Under the pieces are notes generated by a model. The model was not told where the DNA came from, did not search any database, and worked only from the letters and a program-made list of their open reading frames with translations. Below, piece by piece: positions 43,710-46,444 of a stretch of 64,000 bases of DNA; within the stretch, counting starts at the first letter, position 1, and the number at the start of each line of letters is the position of its first letter. Source of the DNA: Actinomycetospora chiangmaiensis DSM 45062 (lineage in GTDB: Bacteria > Actinomycetota > Actinomycetes > Mycobacteriales > Pseudonocardiaceae). The position numbers were made by a program, and so were the translations under genes. The stretch is taken from the NCBI RefSeq assembly GCF_000379625.1, contig NZ_KB903248.1:62001-126000 (forward strand), given 5' to 3'.

Positions 43710-44576
43710 GTGCATGTGACGGGTGTGCTCAGCCTCAAGGGCGGGGTCGGCAAGACCACCGTCACCCTCGGGCTGGCGGGGGCCGCCGCCAAGCAGGGAC
43801 TGCGCACGCTCGTGGTCGACCTGGATCCCCAGGGCAACGCGACCACCGCGTTGGAGCCGGGCGAGAGCGAGACCACCGTCGCCGACGCCCTGGAGCACCC
43901 CTCCCCCGCCGTGCTCGCCAGTTCGATCGCCCCGAGCGCGTGGGACGACGCCATCGACGTCCTCGTCGGCTCGGAGGACATCGAGCGCCACAACCACCCC
44001 GACCCGGGCTCGCAGCGCCTCGGCCGGCTGTCCCGCCTGCTGGCCGCCCTGCCGCGCAGCACGGTGGCCGACCTCGACGAGACGGCGCCGCCGCGACGCG
44101 GCGCCACCGCGGGGGCGTCCCTGCCGCACTACGAGCTCGTGCTGATCGACTGCCCGCCCTCGCTCGGCCAGCTCACGCGGTCCGCCCTCGTCGCGGTCGA
44201 CCGGGCGGTCCTCGTCACCGAGCCGACCATCTTCGCGGTGTCCGGCGTGCAGCGCGCCTTCGAGGCCGTCCAGGCCGAACGGGCCCACAACCCCCGGCTG
44301 CAGCCGCTCGGCGTCCTGATCAACAAGTACCGCGCCCGGTCGGCCGAGCACGAGTTCCGCGTGAACGAGCTCCGCGAGCTGTTCGGTCCGCTCGTGCTCT
44401 CCGGCGTGCTGCCCGACCGCACGGCCGTGCAGCAGGCGCAGGGCGCGGGCGTCCCGATCCAGCGGTGGGACACCCCCGGCGCCCGGGAGATCGCCCAGCA
44501 GTTCGACGTGCTGCTCGGCCGGATCGTGCGGGCGGGCCACAGCGCCCGCGAGCGACGCGGCCGCCGGACCGGCTGA
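43710..44576 (+). CDS. Orphan ParA/Soj-family ATPase
   Basis: A 288-residue P-loop ATPase. The deviant Walker A motif SLKGGVGKTTVTL is at residues 8-20, VVDLDPQGNATTAL is switch I, and LVLIDCPPSLGQLT is switch II. GVLINKYRARSAEHE and LSGVLPDRTAVQQAQGAGVPI are typical of chromosomal ParA proteins. A less common Asp/Pro/Arg-rich insert lies near 110-140. No parB gene or obvious parS sites are next to it, so it is not a normal chromosome segregation pair. It may position another cargo. It converges on the HEPN gene, with stops 2 bp apart. Confidence 0.88.
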   Translation: MHVTGVLSLKGGVGKTTVTLGLAGAAAKQGLRTLVVDLDPQGNATTALEPGESETTVADALEHPSPAVLASSIAPSAWDDAIDVLVGSEDIERHNHPDPGSQRLGRLSRLLAALPRSTVADLDETAPPRRGATAGASLPHYELVLIDCPPSLGQLTRSALVAVDRAVLVTEPTIFAVSGVQRAFEAVQAERAHNPRLQPLGVLINKYRARSAEHEFRVNELRELFGPLVLSGVLPDRTAVQQAQGAGVPIQRWDTPGAREIAQQFDVLLGRIVRAGHSARERRGRRTG

Positions 44577-44578
44577 CC

Positions 44579-45127
44579 TCAGGACGGGCGCAGGCCCGCC
44601 ACCGTCCGCGTCACGAGGGCGAGGAACAGGTCGGCCTGGCGCACCATGTCGTCCGCGTCGCGCTGCCCGACCAGCCGCGTCGCGCCGGCCTCGACCGCCG
44701 ACCGCGTCGAGGAGTGCGCCGCGAAGAACGCCGCCCACTCGCCGTACTCCGGGGCGACCGAGCTGAGCAGCGTCCACGCGTCGGTGGGCCGGGAGGAACG
44801 TCGCGCCGTCGCCCGCACCGCCAGCACGGCGGCGGCCGAGCGGAGCGCCGACAGGTGGGCCAGGCGGAAACGCTCGGCCGGCGTGGACGCGCCCTGCGCC
44901 TCGCGCAGCCCCTCCCGGGCGGAACCCAGCAGCGTCACCACCGAGCGCGAGGGCGGCGGGGCGGGCGGCCGCGGTGTGGCGGCCGCACGCCGGCGGCCCT
45001 CGCCCCGGTGACCGGCGACCGGGGCCCGACCGGAGGCCGGGCCGCGACGCGGGCTGCGCGGGACGGGCGCGGAGGCCGCGCCGGTGTCGAACAGGTCGCC
45101 CGTGGTGGCGGTGGTCGTGGTGCTCAC
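44579..45127 (-). CDS. SAV_6107-type HEPN domain protein
   Basis: A 182-residue protein. The first 75 residues are Arg/Pro/Ala-rich and disordered. The helical part (about 78-180: SVVTLLGSAREGLREAQGASTPAERFRLAHLSALRSAAAVLAVRATA, then DAWTLLSSVAPEYGEWAAFFAAHSSTRSAVEAG) fits the SAV_6107-like HEPN family that I know from actinobacterial genomes. Many HEPN proteins are RNases or substrate-binding partners, but the RxxxxH active-site motif is not evident. The GTG 45127 has GAGGAG upstream. It follows the DUF6504 gene by 26 bp and is probably in the same SOS-controlled transcript. Confidence 0.78.
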   Translation of the reverse strand: MSTTTTATTGDLFDTGAASAPVPRSPRRGPASGRAPVAGHRGEGRRRAAATPRPPAPPPSRSVVTLLGSAREGLREAQGASTPAERFRLAHLSALRSAAAVLAVRATARRSSRPTDAWTLLSSVAPEYGEWAAFFAAHSSTRSAVEAGATRLVGQRDADDMVRQADLFLALVTRTVAGLRPS

Positions 45128-45153
45128 GGAGGTCTCCTCGGGGAGTGGGGTGG

Positions 45154-45444
45154 TCAGGTCAGCCAGCGGAGGTCCCAGACCCCCGGGCCGGAGCGCATGC
45201 GCAGGACGAATTCGCTGGCCGGCAGATGCGGCTCGTCGGAGCGCCGGGCGAGGACCCGCCAGCACCGGCACCGGTCGCCCCCGATCGGCATCGCGGACCG
45301 GAACGGCCATCGCGACTCCTCGATCCAGCGCTCCTGGACCTCGGTGACCAGGTAGTGGCTGTCCCGTCGGTTGGGTCGGCGCTGGAACTCGACGGGGTCC
45401 CCGTCGACGCACCGGACCTGCACCGGCGACGGGCTGCGAACCAT
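45154..45444 (-). CDS. DUF6504-like small protein, predicted to be in the SOS regulon
   Basis: A 96-residue basic protein. Its core, VEFQRRPNRRDSHYLVTEVQERW, then RCRCWRVLARR and EFVLRMRSGPGVWDLRWL, resembles DUF6504 proteins, which in many actinobacteria are encoded beside translesion polymerase genes (dinB or imuB). The function is unknown; a small SH3- or OB-like fold is conceivable. ATG 45444 has GGAGG upstream. An in-frame ATG at 45594 would add 50 residues of low complexity and lies 5 nt after the predicted -10, so a longer form from a leaderless mRNA cannot be excluded. A perfect LexA box lies upstream. No polymerase gene is adjacent here. Confidence 0.75.
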   Translation of the reverse strand: MVRSPSPVQVRCVDGDPVEFQRRPNRRDSHYLVTEVQERWIEESRWPFRSAMPIGGDRCRCWRVLARRSDEPHLPASEFVLRMRSGPGVWDLRWLT

Positions 45445-45510
45445 GCGTCCTCCACGGGCGGCGCGCTCCTCCCCGCCCCGCCTCGTGCGGGAGCGGGCTG
45501 TGCCTGCCAC

Positions 45511-45557
45511 CGTGGGGAAGCCGGCGGCCGGCGCGGCCGACGGGACGCTTCCCCACG
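45511..45557 (-). promoter_or_regulatory. 11-bp perfect inverted repeat in the DUF6504 leader
   Basis: CGTGGGGAAGC (45511-45521) and GCTTCCCCACG (45547-45557) pair perfectly, with a GC-rich 25-nt loop that can fold further. It lies between the LexA box and the DUF6504 start and should form in the mRNA. An attenuator or translation control element is possible. Confidence 0.5.
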
Positions 45558-45573
45558 CCCCGCCGACCGGCCC

Positions 45574-45593
45574 TGTCGAACACGTGTTCGACA
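45574..45593 (-). promoter_or_regulatory. LexA (SOS) box
   Basis: TGTCGAACACGTGTTCGACA is a perfect 20-bp palindrome containing the actinobacterial LexA consensus TCGAAC-N4-GTTCGA at 45576-45591. It covers the predicted transcription start (about 45593) of the promoter TTGACG-N17-TTCACT (45600-45628, minus strand), an ideal place for repression of the DUF6504-HEPN transcript. Confidence 0.88.
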
Positions 45594-45599
45594 TCCACG

Positions 45600-45628
45600 A
45601 GTGAACCCTGCACCGGTGCGATCGTCAA
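45600..45628 (-). promoter_or_regulatory. SOS-controlled promoter of DUF6504-HEPN
   Basis: On the minus strand TTGACG (45623-45628) and TTCACT (45600-45605) are 17 bp apart. The LexA palindrome begins 7 bp after the -10 element. Confidence 0.6.
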
Positions 45629-45680
45629 GTCGTCCGGGAGTGGGCGTGATCCGCGACGCCCGGCGTGATGAGATGGGGCG

Positions 45681-45749
45681 ATGGACCGGGAGGCAGTGGC
45701 GTCGGTGACACCCGCCCACGGGCTCCGACCGGCGCGGGCCGACCGGTGA
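45681..45749 (+). CDS. Possible 22-residue leader peptide upstream of the GNAT gene
   Basis: An open frame of 22 codons from ATG 45681 (MDREAVASVTPAHGLRPARADR) ends in a TGA that overlaps the GNAT start as GTGA. A TGAGAT hexamer ends 6 nt before the ATG, the spacing seen at several leaderless starts nearby, though its second base does not fit TANNNT. It may be a translated leader that couples GNAT expression. Evidence is limited to this geometry. Confidence 0.35.
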   Translation: MDREAVASVTPAHGLRPARADR

Positions 45750-46444
45750 CGGCCGCACCGGAGGACCCGCACCTGGTCGACCTGGACCCCGCGGAGCTGG
45801 GCCGCCGTCTCGACGAGGCGCTGGACCTCTACGTCCGGGCCATGGGCTACCCGCCGGGCACCGCCCGCCAGCGGGCGCCGATGTGGCTCGAGCACGCCCG
45901 GCGGGTCGGCTGGCGCGCGGTCGGCGCGGTCGACGCCGACGACACCCTGCGCGGGATCGCGTACGGCTACCCCGGCGCCCCTGGTCAGTGGTGGTACGAG
46001 GAGGTGCGCCGCGGCCTGCGGCGCGCCCACCGGCCGTCCCGGGGATCCGGCGGCGGGCTGTTCGGCAACGGGCTCGGGCGCCTGCTCGGCGACCCCGGCG
46101 GGTCCGGTGGGTCGTCCGAGGCCCCCGACCTCGACCCGTGGCCCCTCGACGACGACCCGGACCGCTACCTCGGCGACTACTTCGAGCTGACCGAGCTCCA
46201 CGTGCGTACCGACGCCCAGGGCCACGGCCTCGGGGAGGCGCTGCTGCGCCGCCTGCTGGACCGGGCGGACGCCGGGCACGTGCTGCTCTCCACCCCCGAG
46301 GCGCCGGCACCCACCCGCGCCTGGCTCCTCTACCGCCGCTGCGGTTTCCGCGACGTGCTGCGCCACCACCGGTTCTCGAGCGACCCGCGCCCGTTCGCGG
46401 TCCTCGGCCGCACGCTCCCGCTCGAGCCCGCCGACCGGCCCTGA
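45746..46444 (+). CDS. GNAT-family N-acetyltransferase
   Basis: A 232-residue acetyltransferase. The N-terminal part (DEALDLYVRAMGYPPGTARQRAPMWLEHARRVGWRAVGAVDADDTLRGIAYGYPG) is followed by a Gly/Ser-rich insert (about 95-125). The acetyl-CoA-binding core is FELTELHVRTDAQGHGLGEALLRRLLDRAD, with the pyrophosphate loop QGHGLG, and the C-terminal RAWLLYRRCGFRDVLRHHRF is typical of the fold. It corresponds by position to Rv2170 of M. tuberculosis (from memory), next to lppM. The start GTG 45746 is taken because it overlaps an upstream frame; longer starts from 45665 are possible. The substrate is unknown here. Confidence 0.82.
   Translation: MTAAPEDPHLVDLDPAELGRRLDEALDLYVRAMGYPPGTARQRAPMWLEHARRVGWRAVGAVDADDTLRGIAYGYPGAPGQWWYEEVRRGLRRAHRPSRGSGGGLFGNGLGRLLGDPGGSGGSSEAPDLDPWPLDDDPDRYLGDYFELTELHVRTDAQGHGLGEALLRRLLDRADAGHVLLSTPEAPAPTRAWLLYRRCGFRDVLRHHRFSSDPRPFAVLGRTLPLEPADRP

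Follow-up and report, generated by a model that had tools for sequence, protein, structure and literature searches.

A conserved LexA box and a structured leader upstream of a DUF6504-like/HEPN gene pair in Actinomycetospora suggest an SOS operon accessory to translesion synthesis

Introduction

Damage-induced mutagenesis by DnaE2 matters for the evolution of actinobacteria, and the list of its parts is still under revision (text of PMC12926913). Among the closest described systems is the LexA-regulated ImuA'-ImuB-DnaE2 cassette of actinobacteria; the LexA consensus of Streptomyces venezuelae is given as tCGAAC-N4-GNNCGa in the text of PMC9380542. The ImuB C-terminal domain (ImuB-C) is also described as a stand-alone protein whose operons encode DinB, DnaE2 and further repair proteins (text of PMC3765255), and actinobacterial DnaE2B systems are described as linked to a stand-alone ImuB-C protein and as devoid of ImuB (passages of PMC12926913 and PMC6511836). 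Two such arrangements, DnaE2B-[ImuB-C] and DnaE2B-[ImuB-C]-PolY-RecA (PMC12926913), combine a small stand-alone protein with DnaE2, ImuB being absent; the DUF6504-HEPN-dnaE2 loci of the order reported below fit this description, and we infer the DnaE2B label for them. Unlike these loci, the section of PMC12926913 on DnaE2B-[ImuB-C] names neither HEPN nor a LexA box, and the word HEPN does not occur in the main texts of PMC6511836, PMC3765255 and PMC12926913.

The HEPN-M (SAV_6107) family, PF18726, is listed in the table of PMC3710099 with neither an architecture nor an operon; putative LexA control and linkage to dnaE2 and imuB are added to this entry by the present analysis. In the open-access literature searched, DnaE2 and HEPN were never found together and DUF6504 was not named; older LexA-regulon work outside that literature may name these genes.

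In this study, a gene pair encoding a HEPN_SAV_6107 protein and a small DUF6504-like protein was analysed in a window of Actinomycetospora DNA (the whole 64-kb stretch), in the genome of the window and in relatives. To judge from its neighbourhoods, the pair appears to belong to damage-induced mutagenic repair, as a part that has been overlooked. A HEPN gene that carries a LexA box across much of the order, and lies repeatedly beside dnaE2, imuB or dinB, offers a direct lead to a missing component, and with the leader RNA an SOS operon would have an unusual second layer of control.

Materials and methods

The 115 HEPN loci compared consisted of 15 Actinomycetospora loci and 100 loci fetched around HEPN_SAV_6107 genes, mostly one per genus, and since they were chosen as HEPN-positive, the fractions given below refer to HEPN loci and not to genomes. 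The stretches extended about 6 kb to each side in the genus loci and 8 kb in most others, some being ended by contig ends. A Saccharothrix locus with a weak match (L031) was left out. HEPN was found in 84 of the 101 genomes of the order sample and in 137 of the 150 genomes of the family sample, the family being, as we take it, Pseudonocardiaceae; among its 42 genera with HEPN, g276 alone is unrepresented in the 115 loci. Genus g78 is presumably Streptomyces.

Neighbourhoods were searched on the HEPN strand with six queries, namely ImuA', ImuB, DnaE2 and two DinB proteins of the window genome and the DnaE2 of locus L182, and the counts of polymerase neighbours refer to genes on that strand only. 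The repair queries were confined to dnaE2, imuA'/imuB and dinB. ImuA', which gave no match in Pfam, was named by its position and its co-occurrence with imuB and dnaE2 in five loci. The looser promoter pattern consisted of a TTGA -35 element and a T(A/T)NNNT -10 element with a spacer of 16-19 nt, lying against the box. The leader alignment (A4, 21 sequences) comprised 18 references minus L149, in which hairpin 2 is unformed, plus L142, L154, L194 and L021; these additions were chosen after inspection, and the alignment is biased towards loci with both hairpins. Start codons for the comparison of ribosome-binding sites were picked by a script, and a few may be wrong.

Results

LexA box and promoter

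The perfect 20-bp palindrome TGTCGAACACGTGTTCGACA of the original prediction is present at 45574-45593 (no strand assigned), with the core TCGAACACGTGTTCGA at 45576-45591, and is the sole exact match to TCGAAC-N4-GTTCGA in the window. When up to two mismatches were allowed, four window matches were obtained against 2.57 expected, so that only the exact box is informative. Genome-wide, the consensus occurs exactly in 13 places and with at most one mismatch in 72 places, compared with 8 for the reversed control. There is a single genome match to PF01726 (lexA, E 9.9e-25), and the roughly 350 bp that precede its DNA-binding domain hold three boxes with one mismatch each. Exact boxes precede imuA'-imuB and dnaE2 elsewhere in the genome, the genes starting 15-20 bp after the boxes, and the Pfam domains in the dnaE2 product are those of a polymerase III alpha subunit. 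Given these counts, the lexA gene and the boxes of imuA'-imuB and dnaE2, the motif behaves as the LexA box of this genome, as far as can be read from sequence.

The box closely follows a promoter, TTGACG-N17-TTCACT, that is directed towards the pair (45600..45628, minus strand; -35 TTGACG at 45623-45628, 17-nt spacer, -10 TTCACT at 45600-45605), with eight bases from the promoter to the box core. A generic sigma-70 scan of 45000-46000 called no promoter; the claimed arrangement was found with identical layout in all 14 Actinomycetospora loci that have the box. Both half-sites are exact in 14 of the 15 loci of the genus, and the flanks and the centre vary, for example TATCGAACACGTGTTCGATC and CATCGAACACATGTTCGATC. 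The one exception (L022, a metagenome-assembled contig) has kept both genes, as have the other genus loci, and the leader hairpin, and is devoid of the promoter block and the box, which may be due to a deletion or an assembly error. A consensus box next to a promoter, its retention in relatives with the same genes and a LexA encoded in the genome, as expected of a member of the LexA regulon, were all found here.

A box with at most one mismatch was detected within 1.2 kb upstream of HEPN in 94 of the 115 loci: 14/15 in the genus, 46/46 in the rest of the family, 31/34 in the order outside the family and 3/3 in the class outside the order. The count was 0/8 for genus g78 and 0/9 for remote loci. 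Neither the 1.2 kb downstream of HEPN nor the reversed motif upstream gave any match (0/115 each). The box accompanies HEPN in 40 of 40 family loci that lack DUF6504 and in 11 of 11 loci that have both DUF6504 and dnaE2. The HEPN gene is the constant putative LexA target across loci. Retention of the palindrome in relatives with the same gene pair, on which the original prediction was staked, was seen in the genus and in all six g11 loci that have both genes. The looser promoter pattern faces HEPN in 54 of the 94 box loci (14/14 in the genus, 35/46 in the rest of the family, 5/34 in others) and the divergent GNAT gene in none of them. The few promoter patterns outside the family (just 5 of 34 loci) and the eight HEPN loci of g78, none of which has a box, count against the explanation preferred below. 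Predicted control by LexA is strongly supported by conservation of the box in genus, family and order, and LexA regulation of the HEPN side, the best-supported part of the reading, is close to certain as a prediction.

The HEPN protein

The HEPN_SAV_6107 gene (44579..45127, minus strand) encodes a protein of 182 aa that belongs to PF18726 (E 6.3e-33; 113.7 bits against a curated cut-off of 27.2). In its structure model the helices begin at residue 61, and the N-terminus is of low confidence. The best matches of the model among solved structures were the archaeal HEPN proteins 2hsb and 1wol (E 0.1), with none at E <= 0.001, and a weak sequence match to pre-phenomycin (E 0.0036, profile positions 21-97) was treated as chance.

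The possibility of an RNA-acting HEPN response, raised originally, is supported neither by the alignment of 106 sequences, in which no histidine is conserved at 60% or more, nor by the table of PMC3710099, where the SAV_6107 family is entered as 'No' for Rx4-6H conservation. HEPN_SAV_6107 is, on this alignment, a family without the catalytic RNase motif. No nucleotidyltransferase, as would mark a HEPN-MNT system, occurs among the window genes scanned (eight with Pfam, six with NCBIfam), and neither the HEPN nor the small protein has a match in PADLOC or PHROGs. As a separate observation, the poorly conserved N-terminus of the HEPN protein holds an LFDT motif that is invariant in all 16 sequences of the genus and could perhaps be a short, clamp-like interaction motif.

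The small protein

The small gene (45154..45444, minus strand, 96 aa) has its start codon about 130 bp downstream of the box, with the leader in between, and a probable ribosome-binding site GGAGG at 45449..45453 (minus strand) that was read from the sequence and is seen in relatives. A start inside the palindrome was rejected because L016 and other relatives do not keep the longer frame intact; the likely start is 45444. The gene shows 87-99% identity to its counterparts in the 15 Actinomycetospora contigs, and the protein has a mean column identity of 94% over 16 genus sequences.

The small protein matches nothing in Pfam even at E <= 10, and PF20114 (DUF6504) has no match in the window genome, let alone one above the cut-off. 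At the same time, an iterative profile seeded with two syntenic DUF6504 genes from another family of the order recruits proteins from 37 of the 115 loci at E <= 1e-3 (15/15 in the genus, 6/6 in g11 and 16 others), relatives being missing from the remaining 78. All five syntenic genuine-type proteins scanned match PF20114, and the g11 protein of L157 does not. In hhalign, the orphan set and the genuine DUF6504 set were matched with a probability of 96.5% (E 1e-9 for one comparison), which establishes homology to genuine members at the profile level. Since the syntenic position and the profile similarity are shared with DUF6504 but the Pfam model is missed, the protein is a divergent DUF6504 relative and not a member by the Pfam threshold; the label 'DUF6504-like' proposed earlier thus holds for the profile and fails for Pfam.

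DUF6504 and ImuB-C have a similar order of motifs, by eye only. Profile comparison of DUF6504 with the ImuB C-terminus, first as a single sequence (probability 1.4%) and then as 30 C-termini (at most 4.1%), gave nothing significant, and the ImuB of the window genome does not match PF20114. The small protein is possibly a stand-alone ImuB-C-like protein. Its AlphaFold model is poor (pLDDT 48), too poor for a structure search, and the hits obtained among sequences of solved structures were treated as chance; they comprise beta chains of RNA polymerase, the best at E 0.0044, and a single receptor at E 0.76.

A structured 5' leader

The stretch between the box and the first gene carries a structured 5' leader (45502..45575, minus strand; 48.2 bits against the leader model, with covariation). 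The loop GGGGAAG of hairpin 1 (45548-45554, minus strand) is invariant, and the loop CTTCCCC of hairpin 2 (45514-45520, minus strand) is complementary to it; uninterrupted stems reach at most 19 pairs in the family loci. Over 36 genera, 504 of 576 stem cells pair, whereas shuffling of the arms left 410 on average and never more than 440. In the 21-sequence alignment, pairing in helix 1 amounts to 98.7%, both sides having changed in 8 of its 15 pairs, and the covariation score of the whole leader structure is 0.270, against 0.134 for shuffled and at most 0.068 for slid alignments; one control was weaker, as many further pair types being attained in 19 of 500 shuffles. The pairs between the two loops do not covary, and 5 of the 21 sequences break one of them, so that the proposed contact rests on complementarity. 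GGGGAAG is missing from the scanned stretch in five family loci, in one of which (L137) the hairpin lies outside that stretch.

The second loop, which is absent in 16 of the 36 genera, has a further possible pairing partner in the ribosome-binding site: GGAGGCC is found in 14 of the 20 genera with the loop versus 1 of the 16 without it (p 1.3e-4, relatedness not corrected for). The ribosome-binding site of the window is GUGGAGGAC, not GGAGGCC, and the duplex predicted for loop 2 and the site of the window type (-8.4 kcal/mol, L016 representing the genus) is among the weakest of the 20. The whole window leader is predicted to fold with the loop-2 segment paired to the region of the ribosome-binding site.

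Among the 150 candidates scored in each genome out of thousands, the leader model matched once in each of 12 genus genomes out of 13, and the eight other genomes searched yielded no match; the matches given as loci were beside the small gene in 10 of 10. The leader resembles Rfam families in being a structured 5' leader before a stress operon, and no family of Rfam 15 was matched, either by window positions 44400-46000 at E <= 10 or by seven loci at the gathering cut-off. Its candidacy as a target of 6C RNA was dropped, there being no RF01066 match among the 150 of 6038 candidates scored in the genome.

Polymerase neighbourhoods

Like the actinobacterial ImuA'-ImuB-DnaE2 cassette, the pair has a LexA box; in contrast to it, there is no polymerase gene among the window genes scanned with Pfam, and the cassette of this genome lies elsewhere with its own exact boxes. 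In relatives, the layout box-DUF6504-HEPN-dnaE2 occurs in 11 loci, of which 8 belong to the order and 3 to the class, and imuA'-imuB-dnaE2 lies downstream of HEPN in five (three with DUF6504 and the box, one with the box only, one with neither). A dinB gene was found within 2.2 kb of HEPN in 21 loci, 13 in other families of the order and 8 of the 15 in Actinomycetospora. None of the queried polymerases was found on the HEPN strand of the stretch covered in 7/15 loci of the genus (the type of the window), 6/6 of g11, 40/40 other family loci, 8 more loci of the order, 8/8 of g78 and 9/9 remote loci; 61 of the 98 genus, family, order and class loci thus have none downstream on the same strand, including the 40 family loci without DUF6504.

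In the order sample, a strong ImuB match (E below 1e-40) was obtained for 67 of the 84 genomes with HEPN and for 8 of the 17 without it (Fisher p 0.012, relatedness not corrected for); given these 8 genomes, HEPN is not needed for a mutasome. Among the 17 HEPN-positive order genomes without strong ImuB, a same-strand dnaE2 adjoins HEPN in all 16 that were examined, G013 being left out of this count.

The suggestion that the pair is an accessory to translesion synthesis gains from this linkage to dnaE2, imuA'-imuB and dinB. The accompanying claim, that it is a module in its own right with no polymerase adjacent, is true of the window as regards the polymerase; given relatives with dnaE2, imuA'-imuB or dinB beside HEPN, however, the polymerase-free pair looks like a reduced SOS translesion-synthesis neighbourhood. 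Most simply, the window pair would be a reduced state of a wider, putatively ancestral neighbourhood.

Two details of these neighbourhoods may be added. In L021-L024 and L027-L030 the distance from HEPN to the downstream dinB gene is about 1.7-1.8 kb, and no dinB was found there in the remaining seven genus loci or in the window; L164 has a dnaE2-like gene convergent to HEPN.

Flanking genes

The pair is flanked by a convergent ParA-like ATPase gene outside the unit (43710..44576, plus strand, Pfam) and a divergent GNAT acetyltransferase gene (45746..46444, plus strand; start inferred, Pfam match on a longer frame from 45665), which shares the intergenic region with the box. ParA was rejected as a partner as it is convergent and patchy, being found among the 100 other HEPN loci solely in the six g11 loci and L162. 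In the genus, g11 and L162 this gene lies convergently between HEPN and a methyltransferase gene, and its product has weak PADLOC matches to PDC-M28B (best E 2.5e-6). GNAT was likewise discarded as a LexA target, the promoter pattern beside the box facing it in 0/94 loci, and is probably not one.

Discussion

Taken as a whole, the locus is probably an SOS operon in which the pair provides non-catalytic accessories of translesion synthesis, preceded by a hairpin-pair leader and placed in a reduced neighbourhood. LexA bound to the box next to the promoter would keep both the DUF6504-like and the HEPN gene from being transcribed, and DNA damage, through RecA-stimulated cleavage of LexA, would release this repression. 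The conserved hairpin pair at the start of the transcript probably adds a post-transcriptional step, and we hypothesize that this step could consist in loop-loop pairing and masking of the ribosome-binding site. The HEPN and the small protein would most likely act as non-catalytic adaptors or assembly factors of translesion polymerases, chiefly of the DnaE2 mutasome, which in the window genome would be formed from imuA'-imuB and dnaE2 encoded elsewhere under their own LexA boxes. This accessory role is proposed by guilt by association. A more specific version is put forward tentatively, with rather less than an even chance in our estimate: HEPN_SAV_6107 may be an unrecognised non-catalytic subunit or assembly factor of both kinds of DnaE2 mutasome, those with ImuB and those with a stand-alone DUF6504/ImuB-C protein, gated by LexA and by a new kissing-hairpin leader whose loop 2 could pair either with loop 1 or with the ribosome-binding site.

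Several other explanations were weighed. The pair might instead be an SOS-induced damage-checkpoint or growth-arrest module, independent of translesion synthesis, with a toxin-like HEPN modulated by the small protein. Such a role would suit the 40 family loci in which a HEPN gene with a LexA box has no polymerase downstream, and in HEPN-MNT systems it is the HEPN domain that acts as the toxin (text of PMC3710099); against it stand the non-conserved Rx4-6H motif, the lack of a nucleotidyltransferase among the window neighbours scanned, the absence of PADLOC matches for both proteins and the recurrent linkage to dnaE2, imuB and dinB, so we regard it as unlikely. The idea that the partners of the pair are not polymerases but end-joining, photolyase or other repair machinery would draw on the stand-alone ImuB-C genes reported beside Ku/ligase or photolyase genes (text of PMC3765255). 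The repair neighbours found were dnaE2, imuA'/imuB and dinB, the only repair genes queried, and this alternative is rated as improbable.

Least probable of all, with only a slight chance, is the view that the box mainly controls the divergent GNAT gene and that the pair is a bystander. The box does lie between the two divergent genes, and GNAT is frequent beside HEPN, but the promoter pattern lying against the box, where it is found, is directed at HEPN alone, and the box stays with HEPN where GNAT is undetected, for example in L182 and L203. Control of the pair itself by LexA, in the service of translesion synthesis, is the reading retained here.

Apart from the pair, two features of the box set of the same genome may be recorded. 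Identical one-mismatch sites, TCGAACACTAGTACGA, are present at C13:240517, C16:20369 and C24:120204; the three TCGAACACTAGTACGA sites resemble copies of a single repeated element or, alternatively, an operator held in common. At C24:255417-255449, two boxes, one exact and one with a single mismatch, are 1 bp apart.
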